Source: Curtobacterium sp. 458 (GTDB lineage: Bacteria; Actinomycetota; Actinomycetes; Actinomycetales; Microbacteriaceae). Taken from it: 64,000 nucleotides of DNA. Where the stretch lies: NCBI RefSeq assembly GCF_030406605.1, contig NZ_CP129104.1:3424687-3488686 (forward strand), written 5' to 3'. Positions 37,889-57,008 of the stretch are shown in pieces. Every line of letters starts with the position of its first letter. Position 1 is the stretch's first letter. A program made the translations under genes and the position numbers. Below the pieces are notes generated by a model. That model saw nothing but the letters and a program-made list of their open reading frames with translations, was not told the DNA's origin and ran no database searches.

Positions 37889-38021
37889 CGTGGTCCCCCT
37901 CCGGTCGTCACGTCGTGAGCGTCAATGAGCACAACTCCGCCGTCGGATGCCGGTCCGGACGGCGGCTGCCATCGTACTTCTCGACCTGCGGCACGACGAC
38001 GTGCGCAGGAGGGAGCCATCC

Positions 38022-39041: not shown

Positions 39042-39694
39042 CGCGTCCGAGCAACCCCACGTCGTCGTCCGCGGTCGTCGGACAGCGTCTCACGCTCCGC
39101 GCCGACCCCGGCCGTGTCGCCGAAGTGGCGAAGGAGCTCACGACGCCGGCGCTCTTCACAACCTTCGCGGTGTACCTGATCGTCGGGATCGTGACGATGG
39201 AGGTGCCCGCCGGCACCGCGTTCCCGGGGCCCGCGGTGTTCCCCGGGCTCGTCGCCGCGGCACTCCTGCTGCTGGCGGGCCTGCTCGTCGTCCGGTCCGT
39301 CCGACAGCTGCGGCACGGCCCGGACGAAACCCGAGCCGCGGCGAGCGCAGCAGCACCCGCCGCGGCTGCACCGGCCCCGGCCGCGCCCGGCGCCGCCGGC
39401 CCGGCGGACACCGTCGTCGTCGAACAGGCGGAGCCGGAGCGGTCGGTCCGCGTCGACTGGCGCTCACTGGCCTGGGTCGTCGTGTCGTTCGCCGCCTTCG
39501 CCCTGCTGCTCGACGTGCTCGGCTGGATCGTCGGCGCCGGTCTGCTGTTCCTCGGCGTCGCCAAGGGCCTCGGTGCCCCCGGCTGGCTCCGCCCCCTCGT
39601 CGTCGGACTGACGGTGGCTGCGCTCAGCTACATCGCCTTCGACATGGTGCTCGACCTGTCGCTGCCCTCGGGCATCGTCGGATGGAGGTTCTGA
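39038..39694 (+). CDS. tctB: Tripartite tricarboxylate transporter small membrane subunit
   Basis: A 218-residue protein with four hydrophobic helices: LFTTFAVYLIVGIVTM, FPGLVAAALLLLAGLLVV, then after an Ala/Pro-rich cytoplasmic insertion (about 105-140) SLAWVVVSFAAFALLLDVLG and a C-terminal pair. The long insertion is not usual for TctB (about 150 residues) and makes it larger. It overlaps tctC by ATGA and is followed by tctA one base after its stop. Confidence 0.85.
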   Translation: MTRPSNPTSSSAVVGQRLTLRADPGRVAEVAKELTTPALFTTFAVYLIVGIVTMEVPAGTAFPGPAVFPGLVAAALLLLAGLLVVRSVRQLRHGPDETRAAASAAAPAAAAPAPAAPGAAGPADTVVVEQAEPERSVRVDWRSLAWVVVSFAAFALLLDVLGWIVGAGLLFLGVAKGLGAPGWLRPLVVGLTVAALSYIAFDMVLDLSLPSGIVGWRF

Positions 39695-39695
39695 C

Positions 39696-41216
39696 ATGGA
39701 CGTGCTCGGTCTCCTCGGTGACGGGTTCGCGGGAGCCCTGACGCCCGCCAACCTGCTCTGGGTCGTCGTCGGCTGCCTCCTCGGCACCGCCGTCGGCGTG
39801 CTCCCCGGTCTCGGGTCGTCGATGGCGGTGGCGCTGCTGCTGCCCGTGACGTTCTCGCTCGACCCGACGGCGGCGTTCATCATGTTCGCCGGCGTCTACT
39901 TCGGCGGCCTCTTCGGCGACTCGACGATGGGCATCCTGATGAACACGCCGGGGCAGGCCTCGGCGATCGCGTCGACGTTCGAGGGCCACAGGATGGCGCT
40001 GAACGGTCGGGCGGCACAGGCGCTCGCGACCGCGGCGATCGGCGCGTTCGTCGGCGGCATGGTCGCGTCGGTCCTCGTCGTGTTCCTCGCACCGGCGCTC
40101 GCGACGTTCTCGTCGAGCTTCGGACCGGCCGAGTTCTTCGCCCTCGCGCTCTTCGCGTTCGTCACGACGTCGTCGGTCGTGACCGACGACGCGCTCAAGG
40201 GACTCGGGTCGCTGTGCCTCGGTCTCGGCATCGCGGTCATCGGCGTCGACGGCATCTCCGGCGCACCCCGATTCACGATGGGCGTCCCCGAGTTGTTCGA
40301 CGGCATCTCGCTCGTCACGGTGACCGTGGCGATCCTCGCCCTCGGCGAGGTCATCCACGTCGCGTGCCTCGCCCGCCACCTGCAGGACGGGAAGATGGTG
40401 CGGGCCACCGGTCGCCCGTGGCTGTCGAAGAAGGAGCTCCGCGAAGCGGCACCCGCCTGGCTGCGCGGCACCGCGATCGGGCTGCCGTTCGGCGTCGTCC
40501 CCGCCGGCGGCTCCGAGATCCCGACGTTCCTCGCGTTCGGCCTGGAGAAGCGGCTCGACGCGCGACGGAAGGACCCGCAGTTCGGACGCGGGGCGATCCG
40601 GGGCCTCGCCGCTCCCGAGGCGGCCGGCAACTCGACGACGGGGATGGCGATGGGCGCGCTGCTGTCACTCGGCCTCCCGGTGTCGGCGACCGCCGCGATC
40701 ATGCTCGCCGCCTTCCGACAGTACGGTCTGCAGCCCGGCCCGCTGCTGTTCGACCGGTCCCCCGACCTCGTCTGGGCGCTGCTCGCGTCGTTCTTCATCG
40801 CGATGGTGGTGCTGCTCATCATCAACCTGCCGTTCGCGATGCTCTGGGCGAAGCTGCTCCGCATCCCGCGCGCGTACCTCTACGCCGGCATCGCGGTGTT
40901 CTGCGGCCTCGGCATCTACGCGACGAGCGGCTCGGTGTTCGACCTGCTCATGCTGCTCGGCATCGGCATCGTCGGCTTCCTGATGCGGGCGCTCGACGTG
41001 CCGCTCGCGCCGCTCGTGATCGGCATGGTGCTCGGCCCGCTCGCGGAGACCAGCCTGCGTGACGCGGCGCTGAGCGCCGACGGCGACTTCTCGGTGCTCG
41101 TCGCGGGGCCGATCCCGATCGTGCTGTACGCCGTGCTCGCCGTCGTCCTCGCGCTCACGGTGCGGAGCCGCGTCATCGCGCGACGCGCGCGACGACGGGA
41201 GGCAGCGGTCCGGTGA
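39696..41216 (+). CDS. tctA: Tripartite tricarboxylate transporter large permease subunit
   Basis: A 506-residue permease with about 11-12 helices. The TctA signatures are present: LPGLGSSMAVALLLPVTF near residues 32-50 and GGLFGDSTMGILMNTPG; a second half motif is GVVPAGGSEIPTFLAFG, followed by AAPEAAGNSTTGMAMGALL. The loop GDSTMGIL differs slightly from the more common GGSI form. With TctB and TctC it makes a secondary, binding-protein-dependent carboxylate importer driven by an ion gradient. Confidence 0.92.
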   Translation: MDVLGLLGDGFAGALTPANLLWVVVGCLLGTAVGVLPGLGSSMAVALLLPVTFSLDPTAAFIMFAGVYFGGLFGDSTMGILMNTPGQASAIASTFEGHRMALNGRAAQALATAAIGAFVGGMVASVLVVFLAPALATFSSSFGPAEFFALALFAFVTTSSVVTDDALKGLGSLCLGLGIAVIGVDGISGAPRFTMGVPELFDGISLVTVTVAILALGEVIHVACLARHLQDGKMVRATGRPWLSKKELREAAPAWLRGTAIGLPFGVVPAGGSEIPTFLAFGLEKRLDARRKDPQFGRGAIRGLAAPEAAGNSTTGMAMGALLSLGLPVSATAAIMLAAFRQYGLQPGPLLFDRSPDLVWALLASFFIAMVVLLIINLPFAMLWAKLLRIPRAYLYAGIAVFCGLGIYATSGSVFDLLMLLGIGIVGFLMRALDVPLAPLVIGMVLGPLAETSLRDAALSADGDFSVLVAGPIPIVLYAVLAVVLALTVRSRVIARRARRREAAVR

Positions 41217-41602: not shown

Positions 41603-41902
41603 TTGAGCGAAGAGGCGAGAGCCATAGTCATCGCCCGATACTCAGCGGGCGAGACGACGACTCTCTTGGCAGAGGAGTTCGACGTCGCCAAGTCCACAAT
41701 CCTCGGGATCCTTCGGGCGAACAATGTCGTCGTGTGGCGGCAGCCCTCGACGCCCGAACAGGTCGTTGAGGCGGGACGCCTCTACCAGGCCGGGCTCTCG
41801 CTATGGCAGGTGGCTGAACGGCTGTCGGTGAACCAGGAGACGATGCGCGTGGCAATCATCGCCAGCGGAGTGACCGTTCGGCCGCCAAGCGGAGGGAATT
41901 GA
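41603..41902 (+). CDS. Helix-turn-helix protein related to serine-recombinase C-termini
   Basis: A 99-residue protein with two tandem resolvase-type helix-turn-helix units: ARYSAGETTTLLAEEFDVAK followed by STILGILRAN, and GRLYQAGLSLWQVAERLSVN followed by QETMRVAIIASG. Such pairs occur at the C-terminus of some recombinases or as stand-alone island proteins. The start is a TTG at 41603. An in-phase open frame lies directly upstream and ends in a TGA only 7 bases before it (…QHRRK, stop, then SRLSEEAR), so this may be the tail of a longer gene cut by a nonsense mutation. Confidence 0.5.
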   Translation: MSEEARAIVIARYSAGETTTLLAEEFDVAKSTILGILRANNVVVWRQPSTPEQVVEAGRLYQAGLSLWQVAERLSVNQETMRVAIIASGVTVRPPSGGN

Positions 41903-41918: not shown

Positions 41919-44492
41919 TCATCTCGCGTATTGCTTCACGCGGGCATGCCATACCTTCAACCAGGCGACCTCCTCGCAAAGCTCATCGACTGTAGGCGCG
42001 ACATAGTTCTCTTCTGGCGCGTTGTCGTGCCGTGCCGCCCAGCTCGACGTCTTCGAGTACGCCGCCTGAAACTCGTCGTGGTCAGCCTGCGTGAATCTCG
42101 GTAGGATCTTCAACATCCTCGTCTGCACTTCGTTCGTTCCGCGATCGACGAGTTCATTGACGATGAGCAGGTTCATCGCCCGCTCAAGAGCCTCAGAAAG
42201 TCGTCCCGCGATCTGCGCGGTCCGATCGGTGTAGTCGTCGTCCGTCAAAGTCTCGCGCTCTCTTCGCAAGCGCGCCAGATCTGCCTCGAGCTTGTTTATC
42301 CGCTCCGGGATGTCCTTCGCCGCCCAGGGAAGCTGCTCGGCGATGAGGCCGGGTTGAGTACCGCCCATTCGCTGAATTGATCGTGTTGTGGTGGCGACCG
42401 ATTTGCTCATTGCCGCTTTGAGCAGGGCATGAACGAAGGTGATCTCGTGTGTGAAAACGATTACCTGTCGTTCGCTTGCCAGCTCGACCAGGCGGAGTGC
42501 AACCTTTGACCGCCGCTCCGCGTCAAGCGATGAGACAGGATCGTCAAAGACGACGCTCGAGAGCGACTTGTCGAGTTCCACTTCGGTGAGGAAGCCGGCC
42601 AGACCGAGCGCCGTCTGCTCCCCTTCGCTCAGTACCTGATCGACGACTGCGTTACGTCGTGACCCAAGCAGGCTCGGCTGATGTTCGAGCGCTGAGTTGC
42701 GCCCTCGTCCGGTCCGGTTGAGGGTGACTCTGCGGAGATCGAGGCGTTCGGTCTCTCGCGTGAAATGATCCCGGACCTCCGCTGTCACGTATGTCTCGGT
42801 CAGCTCGCCACGTTTCGTCGTTATCGCGTTTGTAGCGGTAAGGCGGCGGACGTCTTCGATCGCCTTGCGCTCCACAAGGCGTGTCACTTCGGCCTCGATG
42901 GCCGCCCTTGCCTCGTGGAGCGTCTTGGCGTCCTGCAGTTCGACCACTTTCTTGCTTGTAGTGGTGAGCGTTCGGGCGAAGGTCGATGCGTCGATAGCTC
43001 CCGCCTCCGTCATCAACGCTTGCTCGCGCGTAGCCGCCATGCTTCTGAACGAGTCCGCGAGCGGAAGTAGATCGACGCCGGGCTCTCCATCGATCCAGGC
43101 GACGGCTGCAGCAGCTGCGCGCGTCCCGGTATCAAACCAGTCGAGCACCGACTGCACGTCTTCGCCGGCCTCTTGTAGTCGATTGATTGCTGCGGAAACT
43201 GCGATAGGGAGGGTCTGAAGATCGACGAAGTGGCTCCTGAACATCGCCCGTGCTTTGGAGGCGGTGTCCGCGTCCCTCGACGTTGTGTCTTTGACGAACG
43301 CCTCGAACCGAGCGAGTCGGTCGGCGGCCTGCTCGTTCAGCGGCTGCTGGCAGAGGACGCAGACTGCGTCACCGCTTGTCACCGGGAAGTCGTGATCGTG
43401 GTAGGCGTCGCCGACTGAGAACTTGCGCGCGGCTTCCCACAGCGCCCGCCAGGTGTCAGAGCCGACACTCGGCAAAGGCTCCGTATCGAATGTGCGAGCG
43501 GATGCAATGCGCGCCGCTTCCTGAAGGTCGACGACCCTCTGTTGCAGGTCTTTTAGCTCACGCTGCTCGTTTTCTCCCAGTGCGTCCTCTACCGTCCTGG
43601 CGTGAACTGCAACAGCTGACCAGTCCCGGCCGAGCGCTGTGAGACGGTCTTTCTCTTTCGTCGGGTCGCTTCCCTTGAGCCGCGCCTCCGCCGCGAGCTG
43701 CTTCGCAAGCTGCGCACCATGATCCTCGGCCAGTGTGATGGCGTCCTCGATCGCGGCACTTGTAGTGGTGGCCGAGATGCCTGAAAGGAACGCTGATGCT
43801 GGAGTTCCTGGCTGGAGCATCGGAAGCTGCGGTCGCTCGGTCTGGTTCGTGCCAAGTCGGCGACTGAGTTCAGCCGCGACCGCTTCGCAAGCTTCGGACA
43901 GGTGGTCGAGAATCGTGAGCGCTGATGGCCGGTAGTTGGCTTCCGAGGCGGTCGTGACATACGCATCACCGCAGTCCTCGTCGTAGAAGCGGATTCGGGA
44001 TAGCTCGATGCTCTGTGTCTCTCCGAGATCCCACGTCGCGTCGTTAGCACCAACCTTGAAGTCGAGCTTCGCCGACTGCTCAGTATCCGTATCCGAGAAA
44101 ACATCACCAAGTAGCTGCGCGTCCTTGACGCGAGCGGTAACGGCTTCTCGGATCAGCCGCGCGTACCCGGACTTGCCGCTGGCGTTGTTGCCGAAGGCGA
44201 CCGTCAGTCCCGCGGCACCGAACGAGAGGGTCTGACCTGTGGCGAGCGCGTTGATGCCCTCGACGCCCGACACCTTAACGAGGCTGACGGGATCTCCTGC
44301 GGCTGTCGAACCCGGAATGTCAGCAGCCTCTACGTTTGCAGCGGTGGGGTAGGTTCCCGCGATCAACTGATCCGCAATGGCGGACACATCATCCGCGGAC
44401 AACGCCTCGTTGCGACAGAAGCGCGCGACGGCGTCCTTCTGCCAATCAGGCCGCATAGTAAGCCAGCTCGCCAAGTCCTCATTGAGGGTCAT
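41919..44492 (-). CDS. Zinc-hook AAA ATPase of RloC/Rad50 type
   Basis: An 857-residue SMC/Rad50-like ATPase. Walker A is GNNASGKSG (101-109). After long helical, coiled-coil-like segments comes CVLCQQPL (378-385), a Cys-x-x-Cys hook able to bind zinc between two protomers. The second ATPase half has the ABC signature VLSEGEQTALGLAGF (620-634), Walker B SSVVFDDPVSSLD (645-657) and the H-loop FTHE (680-683). About 175 residues follow, and I see no clear anticodon-nuclease motif there. RloC-type proteins sense DNA damage or restriction alleviation and trigger abortive responses; here it sits 150 bases after a type III-like Res gene. GGAGGAG precedes the ATG at 44492. Confidence 0.85.
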   Translation of the reverse strand: MTLNEDLASWLTMRPDWQKDAVARFCRNEALSADDVSAIADQLIAGTYPTAANVEAADIPGSTAAGDPVSLVKVSGVEGINALATGQTLSFGAAGLTVAFGNNASGKSGYARLIREAVTARVKDAQLLGDVFSDTDTEQSAKLDFKVGANDATWDLGETQSIELSRIRFYDEDCGDAYVTTASEANYRPSALTILDHLSEACEAVAAELSRRLGTNQTERPQLPMLQPGTPASAFLSGISATTTSAAIEDAITLAEDHGAQLAKQLAAEARLKGSDPTKEKDRLTALGRDWSAVAVHARTVEDALGENEQRELKDLQQRVVDLQEAARIASARTFDTEPLPSVGSDTWRALWEAARKFSVGDAYHDHDFPVTSGDAVCVLCQQPLNEQAADRLARFEAFVKDTTSRDADTASKARAMFRSHFVDLQTLPIAVSAAINRLQEAGEDVQSVLDWFDTGTRAAAAAVAWIDGEPGVDLLPLADSFRSMAATREQALMTEAGAIDASTFARTLTTTSKKVVELQDAKTLHEARAAIEAEVTRLVERKAIEDVRRLTATNAITTKRGELTETYVTAEVRDHFTRETERLDLRRVTLNRTGRGRNSALEHQPSLLGSRRNAVVDQVLSEGEQTALGLAGFLTEVELDKSLSSVVFDDPVSSLDAERRSKVALRLVELASERQVIVFTHEITFVHALLKAAMSKSVATTTRSIQRMGGTQPGLIAEQLPWAAKDIPERINKLEADLARLRRERETLTDDDYTDRTAQIAGRLSEALERAMNLLIVNELVDRGTNEVQTRMLKILPRFTQADHDEFQAAYSKTSSWAARHDNAPEENYVAPTVDELCEEVAWLKVWHARVKQYAR

Positions 44493-44643
44493 TAACTCGC
44501 TCCTCCGGCAGTTCCAGACAGGTATTCAAACAACGTGCCGACCTGGCGGGAGGCACGCTGTTCGCCGTCGCGACCTTCCCCGTCCAGACAGAGTGGGGAG
44601 ACAGATCCAAGCACCATGGTGTTCGCGTCTCTGAACGCCAGCA

Positions 44644-47637
44644 TCACACTCGCCACTTCCCGGGCACAGACACCGCGTAGTTGCCGACGCCGATGGCCTC
44701 GAAGTGACGCTTCGCGGACTTGATCTTGGCATTCTCGGTCGGGCGTCGCTTCAACTCATTCTCGGTGCTCTTCGTCTCGCGAATCATGTACACACGCTCC
44801 TCGCCGTCCTCGTGCTTCACGATGGCCCAGTCTGGGTTGTACGGTCCGACTGGGGTGTCGATCTTGAACTTGTCCGGCAGCTTCATGAAGAGCTTGATGT
44901 CCTCGCGCCCATCAAGCAGCTCGGCAAACTGGCGCTCCGGATCAGAGTCGTACACCACGTAATCGAAGTTCGACTTCTCCGTGTTTTCGAGCTTGTACAT
45001 CTGGTCGAGGAAGCGTTCCTTCTCCTCCTCGCCGTCCTTGCGGAGCTCACGCAGTTCGTAGACAGAGCCCGCAATCCGCTCGTACTGGACGCCATTGACG
45101 ACAAGCTCGGCGAGTGTGTTGCGTAGGATGCGCTTCGCCATGGCAATGAAGTCGTTGGGGTTTGCGATGAACTCTTCGAGCCGGCCGCTCCCGACAAGGA
45201 TGTCGACAATGGTCTTCCGGGTAAGGGAGGTGGCTTCCTGGAGCTCACCGATGACATCTGGCAGGTCGTAGCCGCCCTTGAGCTCCTGCTGGCGTGAGCC
45301 GAGTTCCTGGCCCTTGGCGCCACCTCGAAGCACCTTCAAGCCAGCGCGGGTGACCTGGATGCGCAGTGGCTCGATCTCGGGCGCAGCCTCGATCGCGTCG
45401 ATCGACTTCTCGACAATCTCGTCTCGTTCAACCTCGACCCGATAGGTCGTGCGGCGGCTGATCGTCTCCCAGAACTGTTCGAACTCGGGGTTGGCGAACA
45501 GTTGCTTGTTGATCGTTCGAGCGTGCCGCTTGCTCTTCGGCTTGATGTATTTGCCGATGTTCGCGCGGCCGACGAGCTCGATCACGAAGGGCTCCGCCCA
45601 CGCGAAGTCGACAGGCATGTTCAAGCTGAAGCCGAGCGTGTTGGGCTGGAACTTCGGCTGTACGACGCCGTCCTGGTCGATAAAGCGCTGCGACAGGAGG
45701 TGCTCCCAGATAGACACAGAACCCGCGTAGCCGAGGTTTTCGTCCGAGAGCGATCCGTCCGGTGCTTGCAGTGGGATCTTCGAGAACTCGGCCTTACGTA
45801 CCCGGCCGATCTCGACTCCGGCGTCTTTGTATTCCTTCTGGAGGGCGTCCGCGAACTGTTTGTAGGACTCGTTCGCGATCACCGTTAGAGTGGCGATGCC
45901 ACGGTCGGCAACACGTTCGTAACCGCCATCGCGCTGAGCGACTGGCAGACGCAGTCCTCGGCCAAGGGTCTGCCGCCGCTCTGTCTCCGCGCCCATCTCG
46001 CGCAGGGTGCAGATCTGGAACACGTTCGGGTTGTCCCAGCCCTCTCGGAGGGCCGAGTGGCTGAAGATGAACCGCACCGACTCGCTCTCGTCGAGTAGGC
46101 GTTCCTTCTGCTGCATGATGAGCTCGTAGGCATCATCATCCGCTTTTGTCGCGCCCGTCGTGTCCTGGAATGTGTCGGCCGCGCCCTTCTTGCCCTTGAG
46201 GACAGAGAAGTAGCCGCGTCGCAGTTCAGCCGGATCTTGCGGCAGTAGCTCCTGCCATTGCGGAGACTTCGCGCGCTCCTCGCGGAACAGCTCATCGAAC
46301 CACTGAACGAACTGACCGTTTGCGTCGACATTGTTGGCGCCGTCGCCGAGGAAACTCTCGACCTTGTCAATGAAGAACAGGCTCAGCACCTTGATGCGCT
46401 TGAAACGCAGCTGGGTTTCTTTGCGCAGGTGTTCCTTGATCGTCTCGCGGATCATCTCCTTGTAGATCGCACCCGAGGCGCCACCAATAGCCTCGCCCTG
46501 GTGCAGATAGCCGGAGTGGAGCGTCAAGTCGACGAATGAAGGCTCCAAGCTCATCTCATTGATGCGCCATCCCTCATAGCGAGCGTTGCCAGTCAGGCGT
46601 GGATCTGACAGTTCCTGGTTCTGCTTGACGTTGACGACCCGCCGCTCGAGCGAGCCATCTGCCTTGCGGCAAGAGAGTTCGAGACGCGCGACCCAGCCCT
46701 TGTCGTTTCGGACATCGATGAGCTTGATGTACGGGGTGGCGTCAGCGCCTTGCTGCTGGACGTCGGCCACAACGATCTGCTTCACCAGACCGAGGTCGTG
46801 AGCATCGACCGGGTCGAGCCGATAGACGACGTTGCGCAGCTTCTTGTGCGTGGCGCTGTATCGGAGTGTGAAGACTGGATCGAGCTCGCCGACAGCCGAC
46901 TGCGACAGCAACGACTCCATGTTCTGCGGCTCGTCCATGATGACGACCGGATGCGTCGCCTTGAGGTAGTCGATCGGCCGGAGGCCGTTCAGCTTGTCAC
47001 GGGTCTGATGAATGACGCGCGTGTTCTTGTCGCCGCGAAGGGAAGCGATCGTCATCACCATGATCTGCACGTTGGTCGACGTCGCGAACGACTGAACCTC
47101 CTCTGCGTTCTGACCGCTGTAGACGGACGAATCGAAGGTGATGTTTCGCTTCTTGTAGAGGTCTTCGAAGTGTGAGCGCATGAGCCGGATGCTCGTGTTC
47201 ACGCCCTCACGGATCGCAACACTTGGCACGAGAATGACGAACTTCGTGAAGTTGTACCGCTCGGCAAGCTCGAAGATCGTGCGCAGATACACGTAGGTCT
47301 TGCCAGTACCCGTCTCCATCTCGATGTCAAAGTCGAGCGCCCCGTCGAACAGCTTCGAGGACACCTCCAGACCGTTCTTGTCCTGCACGCGCTGGAGGTT
47401 TGCGAGGACTGTGTCACGATCGAGGACGAGGCGGTTGCCCACCGCGCCGACTTCCTGAGACAGGTCAAGATCAAGCGCCGTATTGCTCGTCTCGTCGACT
47501 GCGGCAATCTGGCCCCGAAGTGTCGTCTCCAGCTTCTCGGCATCCTTCGGCTGTCCATCGAAGAGGTCGACGACCGACTTGATCGCATCGAGCTGATACT
47601 GCTGGCTTGAATCGAATTTGAATCCGCCGCTCATCAC
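44644..47637 (-). CDS. Type III restriction Res-like helicase/nuclease
   Basis: A 997-residue DEAD-like superfamily 2 protein. Walker A is METGTGKT (107-114), motif II is DEPQ (235-238) as in type III Res subunits, motif III is near RYSATHK, and motifs V-VI are ALREGWDNPNVFQI and RRQTLGRGLRLP. The C-terminus carries a PD-(D/E)xK nuclease: PDW at 935-937 and ETK at 954-956. All key residues are present, so it should translocate and cut DNA. The start is GTG 47637 (or ATG 47634), overlapping the methyltransferase stop. It is followed by the ATPase gene after a 150-base gap without a gene. Confidence 0.9.
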   Translation of the reverse strand: MMSGGFKFDSSQQYQLDAIKSVVDLFDGQPKDAEKLETTLRGQIAAVDETSNTALDLDLSQEVGAVGNRLVLDRDTVLANLQRVQDKNGLEVSSKLFDGALDFDIEMETGTGKTYVYLRTIFELAERYNFTKFVILVPSVAIREGVNTSIRLMRSHFEDLYKKRNITFDSSVYSGQNAEEVQSFATSTNVQIMVMTIASLRGDKNTRVIHQTRDKLNGLRPIDYLKATHPVVIMDEPQNMESLLSQSAVGELDPVFTLRYSATHKKLRNVVYRLDPVDAHDLGLVKQIVVADVQQQGADATPYIKLIDVRNDKGWVARLELSCRKADGSLERRVVNVKQNQELSDPRLTGNARYEGWRINEMSLEPSFVDLTLHSGYLHQGEAIGGASGAIYKEMIRETIKEHLRKETQLRFKRIKVLSLFFIDKVESFLGDGANNVDANGQFVQWFDELFREERAKSPQWQELLPQDPAELRRGYFSVLKGKKGAADTFQDTTGATKADDDAYELIMQQKERLLDESESVRFIFSHSALREGWDNPNVFQICTLREMGAETERRQTLGRGLRLPVAQRDGGYERVADRGIATLTVIANESYKQFADALQKEYKDAGVEIGRVRKAEFSKIPLQAPDGSLSDENLGYAGSVSIWEHLLSQRFIDQDGVVQPKFQPNTLGFSLNMPVDFAWAEPFVIELVGRANIGKYIKPKSKRHARTINKQLFANPEFEQFWETISRRTTYRVEVERDEIVEKSIDAIEAAPEIEPLRIQVTRAGLKVLRGGAKGQELGSRQQELKGGYDLPDVIGELQEATSLTRKTIVDILVGSGRLEEFIANPNDFIAMAKRILRNTLAELVVNGVQYERIAGSVYELRELRKDGEEEKERFLDQMYKLENTEKSNFDYVVYDSDPERQFAELLDGREDIKLFMKLPDKFKIDTPVGPYNPDWAIVKHEDGEERVYMIRETKSTENELKRRPTENAKIKSAKRHFEAIGVGNYAVSVPGKWRV

Positions 47638-49613
47638 GCAGTCCAGAGCTCGATGCCCTTGCTCTTGCAGAGCTGAGCCAAGTTGGTTTTGAGCTGGTCA
47701 TCGCCCTGGAACGCGTCCTCGAGGACGATCAGGCGAGCGGGGTCTTCGTCAACGACCGCGCGAAGCTGCTCCAGCGTCGGCTTGACGTGCTCGTCCAGGT
47801 AGGCGAGGACAACGCCACCGCCAACCGCTTGCAAGCTGAGGCCGGCCACATCGAGCGTCGAAATCTGCTCGGTCAACGAGTAGCCCTGCTTGAGCAGAAT
47901 CTCTGACAGAAGGTCGCTTGCAGACGCATCATCAGCGCTGCTGGACTCGCGCAGATCAAAGAGGTGCTGTTCGAGCTGATTTCTGTCTACGTCACTCGAC
48001 ACCTTCCACTTCGAGAAGCTCGTGTCCGCGAGCGTGTACGCCCGAAATCCGACATCGAGTGTCCCCTCGGCGGTAGAACCTTTGGAGGCTTGGGCATCCA
48101 AGACGGCTGCACCGCTCAAGTCGATGCGGGCCCGCGACAGCTCAGCAATGGTGCTGTATCCAGTCTCACGAGCAGGACTTCCAGACGGTGTCGGCTCCGG
48201 CAGCTGGACCTGAATGTGGCGCCTTGATCCACCGTCCTCGACGTTTGCCCTCATCACCGCGTGTGCCGTTGTTCCCGACCCGCTAAAGCAGTCCAAGATG
48301 AGATCGTCACTGCTCGTGCACATTTCGATCAGCGACTCGATTACCGATTCGTCCTTCGGAAAGTCGAAAACCTTACTTCCGAAGAGGTTCATCAGTCGCT
48401 TTGTCGCTGCGCGGCCGTCCTGGTAGAAGACGCTGTAAGGGGTTTGATACTCCTTGTCGCGCAGGTAGCTCTTGATGCACGGCACGCTGTTCTCATCGAC
48501 ACCAAAGTGCACTCGGTCGTCATCAATCCAGGACTGCATCTTTGCCGGGTCACTCGTCATCCATCCTCGCGATGGGACCTTGACCGCCTTCTGGGTGAGC
48601 GGATGCAAGACCTCGTACTTCGGCCCGCCGCCACCTGGCCAGGAGATGTTGTCGGGGAAGTACAGTCCCCGACGGTCCACGTGTGCGTAATGCTTGTGGG
48701 CCTTGGAAGGGTGGCTGTCGGGCAGACCTCGATACCAAGCCTTCATTCCTTCGGTCATCGAGTTGTAGTCAGAACCATGCGTGCGCTGGAGACGCGCGAG
48801 CTGGGCGTAGATCTCATCGAGACCCTTCTTCCGCTGGCGCCAGGTAACTTGTTGCTCCCGCAGATAGTCCGCGTCGCGCACGTAAACGAGGATGTACTCG
48901 TGCGAAACTGACACTAGGCGAGAGTCATTCTTGCGGCCCGCTGCCCAGATCATTGTCGCGACGAAGTTAGCCTCACCGAAAATCTCGTGCGCAAGCCGCT
49001 TGAGGTTCTCAACCTCTGAGTCATCGATCGAGATGAAGATCGCACCGTCGCGCGTCAGTAGATTACGTGCAAGCTTGAGGCGCGGATACATCATGTTTAG
49101 CCAGTTGGAGTGGTAGCGGCCTTCAGTGTCGCTGTTCGTCGACAGCTTCTTTCCCTGCTCATTGACCTGCTGAGTCCACTGCAGATAGTTCTCCAGACCC
49201 TCCTTGTAATTGTCCGGGTAGACGAAGTCCTTACCGGTGTTATACGGCGGATCCATGTAGATCATCTTGATCTTGGCGTGGTAATGCTTCTGCAGGATCT
49301 TCAGCACCTCGAGGTTGTCACCCTCGATAAACACGTTCTTCGTCGTGTCCCAATCTTTAGAGTTCTCGATATCGGGACGAAGCGTTGCTGTCGTGGGCTC
49401 CTGCGCAGCACGCAGGGCACGCTTCTTGCCGGGCCAGAACAGACCGAAGCGTTCGCTACCGTCGGCCGCGTCGCCGTCGAGCAGTTCCTTGAGCTTCTCC
49501 ACGTCCACCTTGCCATCGGCGATGGCCTCAGGAATCAGATCGGCAAGCTGCGCTGCGAGCTCGGTCTGGAAGTTCGGGGTAGTAGATGGTGTTTCGTGGA
49601 CTTCTTCGCTCAT
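47634..49613 (-). CDS. Type III-like DNA methyltransferase (Mod), beta class
   Basis: A 659-residue amino-methyltransferase. Motif IV DPPYNTGKDF (121-130) precedes motif I DCFSGSGTTAHA (441-452), the order of the beta class used by Mod subunits. The target recognition region lies between them (about 220-420), so the recognised site cannot be read. It probably makes N6-methyladenine on one strand. The stop overlaps the Res start (GTGA), as in other mod-res pairs. Ribosome site before the ATG at 49613 is weak (AGAAAGAGA). Confidence 0.9.
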   Translation of the reverse strand: MSEEVHETPSTTPNFQTELAAQLADLIPEAIADGKVDVEKLKELLDGDAADGSERFGLFWPGKKRALRAAQEPTTATLRPDIENSKDWDTTKNVFIEGDNLEVLKILQKHYHAKIKMIYMDPPYNTGKDFVYPDNYKEGLENYLQWTQQVNEQGKKLSTNSDTEGRYHSNWLNMMYPRLKLARNLLTRDGAIFISIDDSEVENLKRLAHEIFGEANFVATMIWAAGRKNDSRLVSVSHEYILVYVRDADYLREQQVTWRQRKKGLDEIYAQLARLQRTHGSDYNSMTEGMKAWYRGLPDSHPSKAHKHYAHVDRRGLYFPDNISWPGGGGPKYEVLHPLTQKAVKVPSRGWMTSDPAKMQSWIDDDRVHFGVDENSVPCIKSYLRDKEYQTPYSVFYQDGRAATKRLMNLFGSKVFDFPKDESVIESLIEMCTSSDDLILDCFSGSGTTAHAVMRANVEDGGSRRHIQVQLPEPTPSGSPARETGYSTIAELSRARIDLSGAAVLDAQASKGSTAEGTLDVGFRAYTLADTSFSKWKVSSDVDRNQLEQHLFDLRESSSADDASASDLLSEILLKQGYSLTEQISTLDVAGLSLQAVGGGVVLAYLDEHVKPTLEQLRAVVDEDPARLIVLEDAFQGDDQLKTNLAQLCKSKGIELWTA

Positions 49614-49684
49614 CGGGTATTTCTCTTTCTCAGTTTAACAATGTCAGTGTCTTTTGTGAATGTTCAGCGTTCGCGCGCTACGGG

Positions 49685-52567
49685 TCAGGGGGCGATGCGC
49701 CACCGGATAGCGAAGAGGTGCTCCGTGCTCTGTGTTCCTTGGAGCGACTGTTCGATCATGTCGAGCTTTTCGTCAATCTCCGATTGAAGCTTCTTGCGGG
49801 CATTCCGGAATTCGTCGTCGGCTTCGTCGGCGCGACGCTCCCACTTGCGTGCCTCGCGCTTGAGCTTGAGTTGCTCCATCGGGTCATCGGCCTGGCGCGC
49901 AGCCTTGCGTGCGTCCTTCTCCTTGGCCCGATACTCACGGATCTTGCCCTCGTGCTCGGCCTTGCGGTCTTGCTGATTCCTGTAAAGCAGCTCTTCCTGC
50001 TGGTCGTAGTAGCGGGAGTTCCGCCCCTGCACCTCTTTCTCTAGCTCCGAAACACGGGCGTTGAGATGCGGCTCGAGCTGGTGAGCGTCGACCGAGACGG
50101 GCTCTGCGCCGACCTGCAGGCAAGCGAGGTCGAGAATGTCGGCGACGTACTCCTCATCGAGGTAGACGCCGTCATCAGTCATACCACCGGCAAGCATGTA
50201 CGACTCTGAGATGTCCTCGTCGCGCGCTCGCATGGTGAAGGTGAGGAGATCAACGATCAGCTCGCCGCTCTTGCCCTGGAGCTTTTTGACGGCGTTCGTC
50301 GCGCGCGCCGACTGGCCGATCGAGAAGGTCAGCTCGCGGGGCGGCGTCTGATGCGACTTGGCGGTCTCCGCGACGTACTGAGCAAGCGGGCTGGCGTACC
50401 GATACTGATGAGCGTTCGGTAGCGGCTTCGACTTAAAGAAGTATCGGCCTGGCTTCGCGTCACTCGTCGGTGCTTCATTCAGGACAAAGGTGCGGCCGTC
50501 CTCATCGAACGAAGCAACATCGCGGAGCTCGTATTGCGTGATTGCCAGCAAGAGCCGCTCGAACTTGTTGAGCACATCGCCCGACTGCTCGTCGTACGCC
50601 TTCAAACGATCCTGAACGTGCGGGTCGAGGTTGTCGAAGACCTTCGCCTTGGCGTTTGCCATCTCCTGCGAGATCTCACCCGCGAACTGATTCTCGAGCT
50701 CCCTGAACGCGGCATCAATCTCGCCAGCGGTTCTGCAGCGGGTGAGAATGTCGCTGATCCGCTTCTCGAAGTCGAGTCCGTCCTCAACCGCACCAAGCAC
50801 CTCGTCGCTTGCGCCGAACACGCTCGAGAACAGCTGGAACTTGTTGGTCAGCAGCTCCAGGATGCGCTGCTCGGCGAGGTTGCCCTTGTTGCTGAAGTTC
50901 ACGACAACGACGTTGTGCTGTTGCCCGAAGCGATGCACGCGACCGATGCGTTGCTCGACTCGCTGCGGGTTCCATGGCAGGTCATAGTTCACGAGCATCG
51001 AGCAGAACTGCAAGTTGATGCCCTCGGCTGCGGCCTCGGTGGCAATCATGATCGTGCCGTGCTCGCGGAAGTAATCAACGAGTGCCTTGCGCCGGTCGAC
51101 TGCCGGGATGCCGGTGATCAGGTCGCTGTCTTGGTTGGCCTTGAGCCAAGCGTTGTAGATCGCAGTCTGCTCGGGCGCGCTGTTGGAGCCGTTGAAGAGC
51201 ACGACGCCCTCGCCGCGGCCAGCATTAGCAAGCGTCCGCGCGATGTACTCCTGCGTCTTCGTCGAGTCAGTGAAGATAATCGCCTTCTCAGCCGCGCCCA
51301 ACTCTCTGAGCCGGTCGAAGCCGAGATCCAGCGCCTCGTTCAGCTTCACGGCCTTCTGATTGGTTGTGATCGAACGAGCCAAGGCGGCATACTCACGCAG
51401 CTCGTCGACCTCAGCATGCATCAGTTTCAGCGTCTCTTCGTTGAGCCTCGCGGAGCTTGGCTGAGCCGCAGTTGCTTCGGCTTCCTCGACGATCTCCTCG
51501 TCGACTTCGTCATCGGCTTCGAAATCCGCCAGGAAGAGGCCGCCTCGATTGTCACGGCGCATCCCAGACGCCACCTCGTCGGCGAGGCGGTTGGCGATGT
51601 TCTCAAGGGTGCTCGCGACTGCGAAGGTCGACGAACCCAGACGTTTGCGAATGATGAGCGCCGAGAGGTGCCTCTGGCTCCCGGCGAACGCGAAGAGCTC
51701 GTCGCGTTGCAGGTAGTCGTTCACGAGATCGTAAAGCCGGACCTCTTCAGGCGAAGGCGTGAACTCGACCGTCAACGGCATGCGTTGCGTGAATCGAATG
51801 TATTTATTGGCGTCCTTGCGCAGCGTGCGCTTCGAGATCGCCGCGACACGCTCGACCAGATCATTGTCACCAGTCAGGTCGCGGTTCTTGATATACCGCT
51901 CGCGGAAGGCATCAAGGGAGTAGAAGTAGTTCGGGTCGAAGATCGAGACCAGTCCGTAGAGCTCCTCCAGCTTGTTCTGAAGAGGCGTCGCGGTGAGCAG
52001 CACGGTCTTATGCGCACCGCGAGCTACATGCGAAACAGCCTCGGCCATCTTGGCTTTGCCGTTCCAGTAGCTCCGCAAGCGGTGCGCTTCGTCAGCGACG
52101 ACCAGATCCCATGGCTTGAGAAGCGATGTCTCGTGACGCAGTGCGAACTCGTAAGAGCAGATCAGTACCTCAGCGGAGCGCGTCTCGGACTTGGCGAGCA
52201 GCGGGTCCTTCGTCTTCGCATCGATGATCGTCGAGGGAATCAGGAACTTCTCGAAGAGCTCCTGCTTCCACTGTTGACGCAGGCTGGACGGCGCGATGAT
52301 GAGGATGCGGCGTTTCCGCTCGGCCCAGTACTGCGAGATGACGATTCCCGCTTCGATTGTCTTACCGAGTCCGACCTCATCCGCCAGGATCACTCCGGGC
52401 AGGAACGGAGTCTGCAGGGCGAACAGCGCTGCATCAATCTGATGCGGCTTCGGCTCTACCTGCGCGTCGAAAAGCAACCCGGCCAGCTTGCCGACATGAT
52501 CGTTCGCATAGCTGCGCTGCAGCTCGTGCGCGAAGTACTTCGCCTGATAGTCGCTGAGTAGAGTCAT
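49685..52567 (-). CDS. SNF2/RapA-type DEAH helicase of a defence operon
   Basis: A 960-residue superfamily 2 helicase. Walker A is DEVGLGKT (63-70), motif II is DEAH (159-162), motif III is TATPLQN (192-198), and motif VI is QRIGRVHRFGQQ. The middle of the second helicase half contains an acidic insertion (DFEADDEVDEEIVEEAEA), and the last 130 residues are a long charged coiled coil (from about SELEKEVQG to IDEKLDMIEQSL). The closest style is the RapA/HepA and DrmD-like group that remodels DNA or protein-DNA complexes. ATG 52567 has AAGGGGG. It is first in the operon with the Mod, Res and ATPase genes. Confidence 0.88.
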   Translation of the reverse strand: MTLLSDYQAKYFAHELQRSYANDHVGKLAGLLFDAQVEPKPHQIDAALFALQTPFLPGVILADEVGLGKTIEAGIVISQYWAERKRRILIIAPSSLRQQWKQELFEKFLIPSTIIDAKTKDPLLAKSETRSAEVLICSYEFALRHETSLLKPWDLVVADEAHRLRSYWNGKAKMAEAVSHVARGAHKTVLLTATPLQNKLEELYGLVSIFDPNYFYSLDAFRERYIKNRDLTGDNDLVERVAAISKRTLRKDANKYIRFTQRMPLTVEFTPSPEEVRLYDLVNDYLQRDELFAFAGSQRHLSALIIRKRLGSSTFAVASTLENIANRLADEVASGMRRDNRGGLFLADFEADDEVDEEIVEEAEATAAQPSSARLNEETLKLMHAEVDELREYAALARSITTNQKAVKLNEALDLGFDRLRELGAAEKAIIFTDSTKTQEYIARTLANAGRGEGVVLFNGSNSAPEQTAIYNAWLKANQDSDLITGIPAVDRRKALVDYFREHGTIMIATEAAAEGINLQFCSMLVNYDLPWNPQRVEQRIGRVHRFGQQHNVVVVNFSNKGNLAEQRILELLTNKFQLFSSVFGASDEVLGAVEDGLDFEKRISDILTRCRTAGEIDAAFRELENQFAGEISQEMANAKAKVFDNLDPHVQDRLKAYDEQSGDVLNKFERLLLAITQYELRDVASFDEDGRTFVLNEAPTSDAKPGRYFFKSKPLPNAHQYRYASPLAQYVAETAKSHQTPPRELTFSIGQSARATNAVKKLQGKSGELIVDLLTFTMRARDEDISESYMLAGGMTDDGVYLDEEYVADILDLACLQVGAEPVSVDAHQLEPHLNARVSELEKEVQGRNSRYYDQQEELLYRNQQDRKAEHEGKIREYRAKEKDARKAARQADDPMEQLKLKREARKWERRADEADDEFRNARKKLQSEIDEKLDMIEQSLQGTQSTEHLFAIRWRIAP

Positions 52568-53569: not shown

Positions 53570-54142
53570 TTACCGGTCCGGTCGCGGCCGCCCCTCAACG
53601 AGTGGCACAACTTTGACTCCATCTGCCTCTGGCCAGCGCTGTTCAAGCACCAAGGCCCACGCTAAGGCGTCGAAATAGCTCGCGAAGCGCGCAGACGACA
53701 TGAGCAAGCTCGGATCTCCCGCCGTCAGTGGCAGGACAATCTGGGCGAGCCTGCTCATCGGGTGAACATCGCTTCCGGGCGCGTTATCGAGCCTGACCGT
53801 GATGCCGTGCTCGATGGGCTCCGTCAGCAGCCACAGCACCGCGTCCGGAACATCCGTGCTCTCACCATCGGCGTCAGGCCAGCCGACAATCACAGCGTCG
53901 CCCACAAGCAGTGACTCCCGCGCGGCAGGCACGTAATACCACCACAGAAACGACGCCCTCGAGTTGAACGGCAGCCGCCGAAGCAACCCAATCTCGTTGA
54001 CGTAAATCGTGATGCCCAAGTCCGGCACGTCCACGGATTCGAAGTACCCATCGACGCAGCGCGTGTAGTCGCTGGCGTCCGCGAAATCACGCACGACAAG
54101 TTCCTCCCGGTCATCTGCCGGGAGGTAGATCCCTCTGACCAT
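53570..54142 (-). CDS. DUF3846-domain protein
   Basis: A 190-residue protein. The central part (about 30-110) has the DUF3846 pattern: GYFESVDVPDLGITIYVNEI, LLRRLPFNSRASFLWWYYVP and LLVGDAVIVGWPDADGES. Such domains are found in phages, plasmids and conjugative elements and their function is unknown. The ATG at 54142 is chosen because AAGGAG lies 6 bases before it; an ATG two codons earlier directly abuts that site. Supports the mobile nature of the region. Confidence 0.8.
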   Translation of the reverse strand: MVRGIYLPADDREELVVRDFADASDYTRCVDGYFESVDVPDLGITIYVNEIGLLRRLPFNSRASFLWWYYVPAARESLLVGDAVIVGWPDADGESTDVPDAVLWLLTEPIEHGITVRLDNAPGSDVHPMSRLAQIVLPLTAGDPSLLMSSARFASYFDALAWALVLEQRWPEADGVKVVPLVEGRPRPDR

Positions 54143-54289
54143 CGTCATCTCCTTGCTCTATGCGGCCGGCAAACCGATTGGTTCTCCTGGCAAGCCGCGG
54201 CAGAGCAACGAGCGGTGAGTGTGTAGCGGCAGCCGCCCCGGAGGAGCACGTCAGCACTCGACTCCAGGAACGGCCACCGTCTGGCATGA

Positions 54290-54818: not shown

Positions 54819-55112
54819 ATGAGATGGGTACAACTTGATACAGATACGTCAATAGCAACCTTGGAACAGACGAATCAACGCGGCTTCACTATCGTCGAGT
54901 TGCTGATTGTGATTGTGGTCATCGCAATACTGGCGGCAATCTCGATTGTTGCTTACTCGGGCATACAGAACCGAGCGAACGACAGTGCAGTCCGGAGTGA
55001 TATGCGCTCAACATACGTCCGAATCCTGGAGTTCACGACGCTCAATGGGCGGCTCCCCACGTCTCAACCTGAGATCAATCAAACGTTTTGTGCATCCAGG
55101 GGATCCTATACC
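54819..55112 (+). pseudogene. 5' fragment of a type IV prepilin gene
   Basis: From ATG 54819 the frame encodes a prepilin: a 20-residue leader, the peptidase site QRGFTIVELL with the obligatory Glu at +5, a hydrophobic helix (VIVVIAILAAISIVAYSGIQ) and the start of a pilin head up to about QPEINQTFCASRGSY. It then continues without a stop into a different, chromosome-like protein sequence from 55113, so the pilin C-terminus is missing. Base composition is clearly AT-richer than the surroundings, suggesting transfer. The upstream gap 54643-54818 is AT-rich and holds no gene. Confidence 0.65.
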
Positions 55113-55406
55113 ATGAGCGACGACTTCACATACGAAGACGAACTGGCCGCCGGTCGCGAGATCTGGAAACTGGTCTCGACCATTCTCGGCATGCCCGAGG
55201 GCACCGAGGACGCGCGCGAGTACTGGCCGGAGGCCATGCAAGGCACGGGACTGCTACTCGGCATGCTCTACAAGCTCGCCAACGAGCTGAACGAGCACCA
55301 CAACGAGTGCGACGCGACGATGCCGGCGACGACGCGACATCTCATTCAGCAGGTACTCGCCCACGAAGATCTTATTCGAGATACATGGCAGAGCGCCTTG
55401 CACTGA
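55113..55406 (+). CDS. Small helical hypothetical protein fused in frame to the pilin fragment
   Basis: A 97-residue segment starting at ATG 55113: MSDDFTYEDELAAGREIWKL and further amphipathic helices ending DLIRDTWQSALH. It is probably the native N-terminus of an island gene, because its composition matches the recombinase rather than the pilin. It stays in frame with the pilin piece, so a 195-residue chimera could be made. I do not recognise the family. Its end overlaps the recombinase fragment by 22 bases, as genes in one operon do. Confidence 0.55.
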   Translation: MSDDFTYEDELAAGREIWKLVSTILGMPEGTEDAREYWPEAMQGTGLLLGMLYKLANELNEHHNECDATMPATTRHLIQQVLAHEDLIRDTWQSALH

Positions 55407-56843
55407 CTCGTGTTCGTCGCTCACCCACGGCCCGGGGCTCTGGCTATAAGCCGGACGCCTCGGGCCCGCAGTTCAAGAAGATGCTCCGCTACATCGACGA
55501 GCACCCCGACGTGAAGTACGTCATCCTCTACATGCGCTCCCGCGTCTTCCGAAACCACCTCGACGCCGCGATGGTCAAGCGGCAGCTCCGCGCCAAGGGT
55601 GTCGAGCTCGTTTCCGCCAAGGAGAACTTCGGCGACGGCTACATGGGCGATGCGATGGAAGCCATCACCGACGTCGTCAACGAGCTCCAGGTCCGCATTA
55701 GCGGTGAGGACATCAAGATCAAGATGGCCCACAAGGTCGAACGCGGCGGAACCGTCGGACGCGCCAAGCTCGGCTACCTCAACGCCCGCAAGGACTTCGA
55801 CGGGCGCCTCGTCAACACCATCGACGTCGACCCGAACCGAGCACCGCTCATCCGCTGGGCATTCGAGCAGTACGCCACCGGACAGCACTCGATCACGCAG
55901 CTCCAGATGATGCTAGAAGATCAGGGGCTCACCACTCGGCCCTCGAGTAAGCGACCCGCCCGGCCACTGTCGAGCAGCCAGCTGGCGATCATCCTGCGCG
56001 ACCCGTACTACACCGGCGTCATCCGCTACGAAGGTCGCCTCTATCCGGGACGCCACGAACCGATCATCGGCAAAGAGCTGTTCCTCGCAGTCCAGAAGGT
56101 GCTCGATGGCCGCAACCGCAAGGGCGATCGCGACCGCACGCACTTTCCACTTCCTTCGCGGACTCCTGTACTGCGCCGAGTGTCGCGAGGCAGGACGTGA
56201 CAGTCGCCTTGTCTACAGCCAGAACACCGGCAACGGCGGCACCTACGAGTACTACGTCTGCACCGCCAAGCAGCGCGGCCTCTGCACCATGCGCACCGTC
56301 CGCCTCGACGAAGCCGAAGCAGCGGTCGCACGCGCCGTCGCATCGCAGCGATTCCCGGAGACCGAGCTGGCAGACATCCGCGATGAGGTGCGCCGCGCGC
56401 TCGTCGACATGCAGGCTGCCGACATCGAGGAGAAGGACGCACTCCGTGCGCGGCTCCGTACACTCGAAGAGCAGGAGGACCGCCTGGTCGAGCTCGCCGC
56501 CGAAGGCACCATCGCGAGCAGCAAGCTCCGCGACCGGCTGGAGTCCGTCACGATGCAGAAGGGCGCCATCGCCGAAAGTCTGGCCCGCACCGGCAGCCGC
56601 ATCCAGCGCGGCGCCGACATGGTCTTCGCCTACGTCGACCTGCTTGATGATCCGGCCGAGCTGTACGAAAGCATCGTCGACAGCGCGAAGCGCGACTTGC
56701 TCGGCGCATTCTTCGACCGCATCGACGTCCTCGTCAGCGACGATGACCTGCGCATCTCGCCCCAGCGGACGGAGATCAACGAAGCGCTGCACGAGTGGAA
56801 GTCCCAGCACAGCTTCAACTCGCAGCCTGAGACTTTTGAAGAA
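55385..56843 (+). pseudogene. Decayed large serine recombinase
   Basis: The first frame (55385-56150) covers the middle of a large serine recombinase: the back of the resolvase domain (YVILYMRSRVFRNHLDAAMV, VELVSAKENFGDGYMGDAME) and the Recombinase domain (PLIRWAFEQYATGQHSITQL, DPYYTGVIRYEGR). The N-terminal 50-60 residues with the catalytic Ser motif are missing or collapsed to MAERLALTRVRRSPTARG. Near 56144-56146 (TTT) one extra base shifts the frame; the continuation has the zinc-ribbon (LLYCAEC...CTAKQRGLCTM) and coiled-coil (ADIEEKDALRARLRTLEEQE). No stop follows until 56967-56969 inside tRNA-Pro. The enzyme cannot be active. Confidence 0.85.
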
Positions 56844-56849
56844 ACGAGA

Positions 56850-56879
56850 AGAGCCTCCCGCATTTCTGCGGAAGGCTCT
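56850..56879 (-). terminator. Terminator of tRNA-Pro
   Basis: AGAGCCTCCCGCA and TGCGGAAGGCTCT form a 13-bp stem with one mismatch around TTTC. On the minus strand, downstream of the tRNA, it is followed by TTCTCGTTTCTTC, a T-rich tail. It marks where core chromosome resumes right of the island. Confidence 0.7.
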
Positions 56880-56931
56880 CCTGCTGACCTAAACCGGCTC
56901 ACTCAGTCCAAAGGTTTGAATAAGCCTGTAT

Positions 56932-57008
<77 letters not shown>

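Follow-up and report, generated by a model that had tools for sequence, protein, structure and literature searches.

A helicase-associated Type III restriction-modification locus and its putative accessory defence gene in Curtobacterium sp. 458

Gene organization of the locus

In Curtobacterium sp. 458, a 64,000-nt stretch of the 3.68-Mb single-contig genome (contig NZ_CP129104.1, positions 3,424,687 to 3,488,686; hereafter the window) contains four co-directional open reading frames (ORFs) on the minus strand, transcribed in the order helicase (H), DNA methyltransferase (Mod), helicase-nuclease (Res) and ATPase (A). The locus is a member of a published, little-known subgroup of Type III restriction-modification (RM) systems that carry a helicase gene in front of mod, and it has in addition one accessory (cargo) gene, the ATPase.

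The first gene (49685..52567, minus strand) was recognized from its ORF and profile matches as encoding an SNF2-type helicase/translocase of 960 amino acids (aa). Its Pfam matches, SNF2-rel_dom and Helicase_C, include no nuclease domain, and the motifs DEVGLGKT and DEAH lie at residues 63 and 159. After a gap of 71 nt, the mod gene (47634..49613, minus strand; ORF, profiles and motifs) encodes a Type III methyltransferase of 659 aa with a 609-bit match to the PADLOC profile MTase_III. In this protein DPPY at residue 121 precedes the FxGxG-type motif FSGSGTT at residue 443, which is the order of the beta class. The res gene (44644..47637, minus strand; ORF, profiles and motifs) overlaps mod by the four bases GTGA (47634..47637, minus strand), which hold the mod stop and the res start and suggest translational coupling. 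Its 997-aa product combines a superfamily 2 (SF2) motor (GTGKT at 110, DEPQ at 235) with a C-terminal PD-(D/E)xK nuclease (PDW at 935, ETK at 954), and matches REase_III of PADLOC with 880 bits as well as RE_endonuc of Pfam. The Mod and Res subunits of EcoP15I are the top solved relatives of the two proteins, and EcoP15I Res is the one PDB match of Res at E <= 0.01 (190 bits).

The Res stop codon is separated by 151 nt (44493..44643, minus strand), the position of the cargo slot described below, from the fourth gene (41919..44492, minus strand). This gene encodes a Rad50/SMC-like ABC ATPase of 857 aa with a CxxC zinc hook; Walker A (NASGKSG) lies at residue 103, CVLC at 378-381, SEGEQ at 622 and DDP at 650. 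The protein matches the PDC-S06 profile PDLC04891 over residues 1-853 (574.8 bits), that is, along its full length, and its start codon is preceded by a GGAGGAG stretch of its own. Promoter and terminator scans gave numbers near chance (3 found against a mean of 2.1, and 10 against 8.4).

A preliminary description of this DNA, made from the sequence, had pointed out four adjacent minus-strand genes with intact catalytic motifs, including both H motifs, the motif order of Mod, the DEPQ and PD/ETK motifs of Res and the GTGA overlap. All of these particulars were confirmed, and its view of a Type III core in a layout unlike the classical two-gene one was borne out.

Conservation of the helicase-Mod-Res core

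Thirty-two related loci were obtained from one scan of a species-genome collection with H as the sole query; judging by their names, we take all of them to be actinobacterial. Homologues of Mod and Res, in the same gene order, are present in 29 of these loci. In L019 the contig ends inside H, and in L026 a short mod ORF is followed by the contig end 291 nt beyond, so that L008, with a truncated mod and no Res, is the only one of the 32 that lacks Res without a contig end to account for it. In L020, additional DNA separates a mod fragment from a complete mod-res pair. As H was the only query and 29 of the 32 loci brought Mod and Res with it, the adjacency of the three genes is not a matter of chance.

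In an even draw of 296 genomes of the class, H was found in two, the genome under study and G139, and in both of them Res lies about 2 kb away with Mod in between. Eight further genomes of this draw contain a Res at 34-37% identity without a close H. Genome G078 has a Res at 55% identity together with Mod and no H within the 14 kb examined. Eight loci whose Res is without a close H (L050 and L067-L073) served as a small comparison group of Type III loci. In the four of them whose stretch shows the region upstream of Mod (L050, L068, L069 and L072), an unlike helicase is found there.

The association extends to other bacteria. A tblastn search of plasmids with H gave 978 records at E <= 1e-5, many of them sharing the SNF2 motor only, and 44 records in which a single place reaches a coverage of at least 80%. 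From the ranked match lists, rather than at random, 14 non-actinobacterial loci were picked (nine on plasmids and five on Escherichia coli chromosomes; proteobacterial, deinococcal, bacteroidetal and planctomycete), and in every one of them H is accompanied, at a distance of up to 10 kb, by genes for a methyltransferase and a Res-type protein. Overall, H accompanies Res proteins of the PADLOC families 03647, 03648 and 03654. As judged from this co-occurrence, the core consists of the three genes H, Mod and Res, and the four-gene set is not a fixed system. A scan of viral contigs, which detects close relatives only, found no relative of H or A.

Two irregular records were also seen. At the contig edge of L017 (2-11701), a second copy of the mod end and a full Res stand just upstream of H, possibly a tandem duplication of mod-res. 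In the E. coli record L043 (10001-12837) the helicase match is split over two frames, and the gene looks interrupted.

Relationship to published helicase-associated Type III systems

A helicase-like gene located 5' of mod has been reported in the Type III systems Eco86II of E. coli NCTC86 and BspHIV, both of them helicase-associated systems that form N4-methylcytosine (m4C). According to the excerpted text of that report, helicase homologues close by sequence accompany hundreds of putative systems, a helicase gene 5' of mod is present in more than 500 genomes, the helicase has no endonuclease motif, and it is unnecessary for methyltransferase activity (PMC8259958).

The chromosome of NCTC86 contains a helicase-Mod-Res set at 5046030-5055447, which, from the strain and the layout, is probably Eco86II. 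Its helicase (5046030-5048921; L078:6031-8922) is homologous to H over the full length (39% identity, 979 columns, E = 0). The Mod proteins share 27% identity over the methyltransferase part alone, and the Res proteins gave no significant alignment (best E 0.059) and fall into different PADLOC families, 03647 in the window and 03654 in NCTC86. Because the helicases are homologous along their whole length and the Res proteins do not align, the helicase is the shared element. The window thus has, immediately 5' of mod, a helicase gene that is free of nuclease motifs and homologous to that of NCTC86. The layout beyond the classical type that was noticed in the preliminary description stands as regards the conserved third gene, the helicase; the helicase-Mod-Res arrangement itself had already been published (PMC8259958, in excerpt).

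Exchange of the central block of mod

Twenty-eight related loci with full H, Mod and Res were compared together with the window. Mean pairwise identity over these 29 loci is 0.79 for H and 0.77 for Res, and within Mod it is 0.83 for residues 1-210, 0.33 for residues 221-510 and 0.73 for residues 531-659. The exchanged central block thus covers approximately residues 211-510, and it probably sets specificity. Block identity is 26-42% in the 21 locus pairs whose Res proteins are at least 95% identical (locus pairs in these and the following counts are not independent of each other). A replacement of the whole of mod, considered with block limits of 245 and 400, was dropped, as the re-cut blocks show that the centre alone is swapped and both ends stay with H and Res.

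Pairwise distances of H and Res are strongly correlated (0.94). The corresponding values are 0.90 for Res and the C-terminal part of Mod, 0.85 for H and this part, and 0.62 and 0.60 for the N-terminal part of Mod with H and Res, respectively. With the central block the correlation falls to 0.09 for H and 0.06 for Res. None of 2000 permutations reached any of the five values between 0.60 and 0.94; 53 reached the value for H and the block and 169 that for Res and the block.

Two Brevibacterium loci (L007 and L028) correspond in the left flank, in H, in both ends of mod, in res and in the right flank (75% over 804 nt) and differ in the mod block and the cargo, a pattern that, read from the alignment, is one of exchange in place. 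Similarly, the mycobacterial loci L016 and L018 have 4.9 kb upstream in common and differ in block and cargo; the contig of L018 stops before any shared right flank. By sequence comparison, a conserved chassis of H, res and the two mod ends recurs in different genera.

An exchange slot after the Res stop codon

DNA homology between related loci breaks off near the end of res. Of 56 locus pairs whose Res proteins are at least 90% identical, 51 lose it between -43 and +16 nt from the stop codon, and in the remaining five pairs the next gene or its start is shared: A in L003 and the window, a DUF6414-type gene among L012, L015 and L030, and an AAA ATPase in L014 and L016.

The spacing of the next same-strand ORF of at least 100 aa was compared between 28 loci with at least 1 kb downstream and the eight comparison loci. 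A distance of no more than 100 nt from the Res stop to the start of this ORF was seen in 18 of 28 loci against one of eight (Fisher p 0.016), and one of no more than 200 nt in 24 against three (p 0.013). For 30 nt the numbers are 13 and one (p 0.11), and in 11 loci against none the Res stop is overlapped by a possible start (p 0.08). The 18 close ORFs include a serine recombinase (L010) and a doubtful ORF of 111 aa (L034).

The Pfam scan covered 20 downstream proteins of 14 loci (10 of them also compared with PADLOC) and five more cargo proteins, from L009, L012, L016, L027 and L029. Nine of the 10 cargo proteins gave a PADLOC match at E <= 1e-5, some of them weak. The slot of L013 holds an OLD protein (179 bits), and that of L014 an AriA/OLD-like AAA ATPase (70 bits), to which those of L016 and L009 are similar. 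Ppl is present in L014 (143 bits), L018 (142 bits) and L005 (111 bits), a YobI ATPase/Tmn in L007, and an RloC-like AAA_13 protein in L021 (404 bits with PDC-S06). A Hachiman-like set in L022 comprises HamA and HamB (HamB 730 bits) with a Ymh-type protein. Further slots contain an Mko-like helicase (L023, 125 bits), GmrSD as the second gene (L025), an AAA+ protein with DUF6414 (L028), DUF6414 (L012), DUF6414 with an AAA protein and an OLD-like ATPase (L030), a PD-(D/E)XK protein 167 nt away (L052), AAA_15 (L027) and an SMC-like protein (L029). In L004 the cargo shows a weak nSTAND1 similarity below the cut-off and no PADLOC match at 1e-5, and the first gene of L009 has no Pfam match above the cut-off. 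The cargo proteins scanned have no domain that all of them share. As predicted from these domains, the slot holds varied defence genes, abortive-type and other, one of several per related locus.

In the non-actinobacterial loci that were opened, extra genes are more often located between H and Mod. The known IetA-IetS pair (350 and 1206 bits) takes this place in E. coli FDAARGOS_772 (L046, 13379-16756). By annotation names, the place holds Abi in L037 and L047 and AIPR with VapC in L038, and a DUF262 gene stands between Mod and Res in L036. In the literature searched, mostly open-licence with few subscription papers, no title or abstract opening among those listed concerns a cargo slot after a Type III res. 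Exchange exactly at the Res stop would provide a natural assay for functional coupling between an RM system and an abortive gene. Defence genes as yet undescribed could also be sought in the slot, as the cargo of L004 and L009 suggests.

The accessory ATPase

Close homologues of A are rare. One follows Res in a single related locus (L003, 89% identity), and L012 has a 28-29% relative 1.9 kb after Res. At E <= 1e-100, A was found in one of 249 genomes of the family (its own), and at E <= 1e-60 in four of 396 genomes of the order, namely its own, that of L003 and two in which H, Mod and Res are absent from about 20 kb. In these two, represented by L064 (9004-13508) and L065 (4882-9386), A (52-53%) overlaps by four bases a 646-aa AAA_15/AAA_21 ATPase. 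The start of this partner ATPase resembles the slot cargo of L014 and L016, and the two genes possibly form a defence pair. Among plasmids, 149 records contain relatives of A at E <= 1e-30; in eight contexts (28-32% identity), opened from the 25 that were listed, none adjoins Type III genes. The A relative of L059 sits behind a BREX set and that of L060 near a Type II system.

The comparison locus L050 (G202:C1:3220000-3238000) contains a 27% relative of A located 10 nt after Res in one operon, which comprises a small helix-turn-helix (HTH)-like ORF (by eye), an HKD/SNF2 helicase (402 bits with 'HKD+Snf2'), DUF4391 (152.6 bits), Mod, Res and the relative. From its gene content, L050 is an independent case of an A relative behind a helicase-associated Type III set. 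The distribution as a whole marks A as a passenger, apparently separate from the chassis. The preliminary description had regarded the four genes as one composite system, an idea to be given up if their homologues rarely co-occurred. For A co-occurrence is indeed rare, since a close homologue follows Res in one of 32 loci, and the composite system was not upheld.

The alignment of A comprised 118 sequences longer than 800 aa, that is, A and 117 relatives out of its best 120 matches, and left out the L021 cargo. N103, K107, C378 and C381 are present in 118 of 118 sequences and D650 in 117; E770 and H822, with 51 residues between them, are invariant. RloC has a catalytic triad of the form R-x3-E-x36-52-H, and replacement of its Arg by Ala abolished activity, according to the excerpted text of PMC2610378. 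In the A clade, position 766 is Ser and position 821 is Arg in all 118 sequences. In nine distant rows (L050, L012 and L054-L060) position 766 is Arg and 821 is not, and in the L021 cargo R682-x3-E686 is kept, with H736 after a Ser and 49 residues between. Thus, A has the ABC ATPase motifs and the zinc hook of RloC and lacks its triad, and it was not filed as RloC because of the Ser at 766. Of the Rad50/RloC-like ATPase with a CVLC hook that had been described beforehand, the ABC ATPase and the hook hold good and the RloC triad does not. An AlphaFold2 model of A (mean predicted local distance difference test score (pLDDT) 81.9, predicted template modelling score (pTM) 0.47) is unreliable in the active-site loop. 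The Foldseek matches listed for it, among which heads of SMC, Rad50 and related proteins predominate, have long-range root-mean-square deviations and do not bear on the RNase region.

Proposed function and alternative explanations

Type III Mod enzymes methylate one strand of an asymmetric site, and Type III Res enzymes cut when complexes meet after ATP-triggered sliding. Judging from their families, Mod of the window would bind an asymmetric site and methylate one strand, and Res, guided by Mod, would hydrolyse ATP, slide on DNA and cut where complexes meet at unmodified sites. H would most likely act as an ATP-driven double-stranded-DNA translocase that assists restriction in vivo, where it might, for example, clear or remodel phage DNA covered with proteins. 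A would most likely act on its own, as a zinc-hook ABC ATPase whose C-terminal region is RNase-like, serving, like the other cargo, as a second-line gene of the abortive type. We consider it probable that the locus is a helicase-associated Type III RM system with one accessory defence gene, in which H aids restriction and A provides an independent second line. The comparison points to restriction and not to modification as the role of H: H is kept with Res proteins that do not align with each other, its distances follow those of Res, and they are almost uncorrelated with those of the mod block. At the time of its report in 2021 no role was known for the conserved helicase (PMC8259958, in excerpt), and none emerged from the mostly open-licence literature searched. 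An abortive arm, which the preliminary description had suggested as one possible role of the ATPase, gains partial support from the abortive-type and other defence genes of the slot and from the A relative of L050.

Several points weigh against this interpretation. Mass spectrometry of partly purified Eco86II detected Mod and Res and no helicase peptides, and partial cutting was kept (PMC8259958, in excerpt). Since this helicase-free preparation still cut, H may be dispensable for cutting in vitro. Direct contact between H and Res need not be the conserved point either, because H also accompanies a Res that cannot be aligned. Moreover, the H-Res correlation may reflect merely joint inheritance with selection for new mod alleles. 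As to A, the Glu and the His are the only residues that suggest an RNase role, and its model has a pLDDT below 50 at residues 779-789 and 822-827.

Other explanations were weighed against the same evidence. That helicase, Mod, Res and ATPase are one machine is very improbable and largely refuted by co-occurrence. The four genes are adjacent and co-directional in the window and in L003, and the independent L050 operon has a distant A directly behind Res, but a close A follows Res in just one related locus, the eight plasmid contexts of its relatives adjoin no Type III genes, the 52-53% homologues stand beside another AAA ATPase without H, Mod or Res, and unrelated genes fill the slot elsewhere. 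Slightly better than an even chance is given to a plainer account, in which the site behind Res tolerates insertions as part of a mobile defence island, and the cargo is autonomous and shares transcription and transfer alone. Several cargo types do resemble stand-alone systems (by the names HamA-HamB, OLD, Ppl and PDC-S06), no ORF lies within 100 nt of the Res stop in 10 of 28 loci or within 200 nt in four, and the L010 slot is occupied by a recombinase. Further, A has its own GGAGGAG before the start, and its relatives occur near BREX and Type II systems. However, starts that overlap the Res stop and ORFs within 100 nt, both more frequent than in the comparison loci, are tighter than chance insertion needs.

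A guarded arrangement as in PrrC-EcoprrI, in which the chassis silences the cargo and a phage anti-restriction protein that inhibits the chassis frees it, seems unlikely. A linked Type I RM enzyme does silence PrrC, linkage to Type I or III loci is known for a few RloC genes, and two distinct RloC-like clades (A and the L021 cargo) occur in the slot; yet RloC is only rarely linked to Type I RM (PMC2610378, in excerpt) and is held inactive by its own ABC domain (excerpt of PMC3710099), and the cargo proteins scanned have no domain in common. It is quite unlikely that H works independently, as a DISARM/BREX-like helicase able to inhibit phage DNA alone, and merely travels with Type III genes. 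DrmD is its best PADLOC match (591.5 bits), and the published helicase was unneeded for methylation and unseen in the Eco86II preparation, but H scores below the NCBIfam DrmD_b cut-off, and L008 alone among the 32 loci lacks Res without a contig end. A more elaborate proposal, which we regard as doubtful, is that of a chassis with two plug-in sites, the mod block and a socket at the Res stop that takes one of many abortive or DNA-targeting modules, with the constant H as the common link that joins these modules to Type III enzymes whose Res families are unlike. Such a chassis would sense foreign or inhibited restriction and license the module, and in the A clade the Arg would have been relocated from R-x3-E to RH. 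The role of H as a helper of restriction can be tested by single deletions.

Flanking genes and possible element ends

Immediately beyond A, an ORF of 99 aa with a resolvase-type HTH (HTH_7; 41603..41902, plus strand) runs convergent with the operon and is a possible edge gene. In L005, L009 and L014 relatives of it stand on the far side of the cargo, and in L020 one stands between the mod fragment and mod. Upstream of the operon, a serine recombinase, possibly the integrase of an element, is encoded in two overlapping frames (55088..56969, plus strand), of which 55088-56200 contains the Resolvase and Recombinase domains and 56106-56969 contains Zn_ribbon_recom. The recombinase and the HTH ORF, located on opposite sides, may mark the ends of a mobile element. 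A DUF3846 protein (52 bits; 53570-54148, minus strand) is also encoded upstream of H. The plus-strand genes at 37947-41216, presumably of a tripartite tricarboxylate-type transporter, end next to the island.

Comparison with known systems

The preliminary description had likened the locus to Hma, which has the same three kinds of enzyme (helicase, methylase and ATPase). This likeness was rejected: H matches HmaA with 190.6 bits against 591.5 bits for DrmD, HmaA ranks below three DrmD/BrxH models, and Mod and A match other families, with no HmaB or HmaC among the listed matches of Mod (best 25 of 34) and A (17 of 17). DISARM was rejected as well, since H reaches 596 bits against an NCBIfam DrmD_b cut-off of 950; the genes adjoining H, to which the scan for DrmA and DrmB was confined, are Mod, Res and A. 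MADS was dropped, as no mad profile appears among the best 25 of 47 matches of H and A matches mad3 with just 40.5 bits. A small HTH gene before H is called 'mads1' by PGAP in E. coli, e.g. at 11814-12014 of L047; the neighbours of such genes are SNF2, Abi, methyltransferase and DEAD/DEAH genes, and the model is possibly over-wide. Going by excerpts of the respective reports, YprA/ARMADA (PMC12458937) and the MORC operons (PMC2292703) are different helicase systems.

A resembles RloC and PrrC in its Rad50-like ABC ATPase, its CxxC hook and the Glu and His at RloC spacing, and differs in the Ser that replaces the triad Arg and in the Arg directly before the His. Along its whole length it resembles PDC-S06, a PADLOC single-gene candidate family.

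The locus shares with Eco86II and BspHIV the gene order helicase-mod-res and a helicase that has no nuclease domain by Pfam and, in the case of NCTC86, is homologous over the full length. It differs in its Mod, related over the methyltransferase part alone, in its unalignable Res and in the cargo slot, which is not described in the excerpted text on these systems (PMC8259958). With EcoP15I, homology covers most of the length of Mod and two stretches of Res that include the motor and the nuclease; whereas the classical Type III system consists of two genes, the type found in the window keeps a third, the helicase gene.

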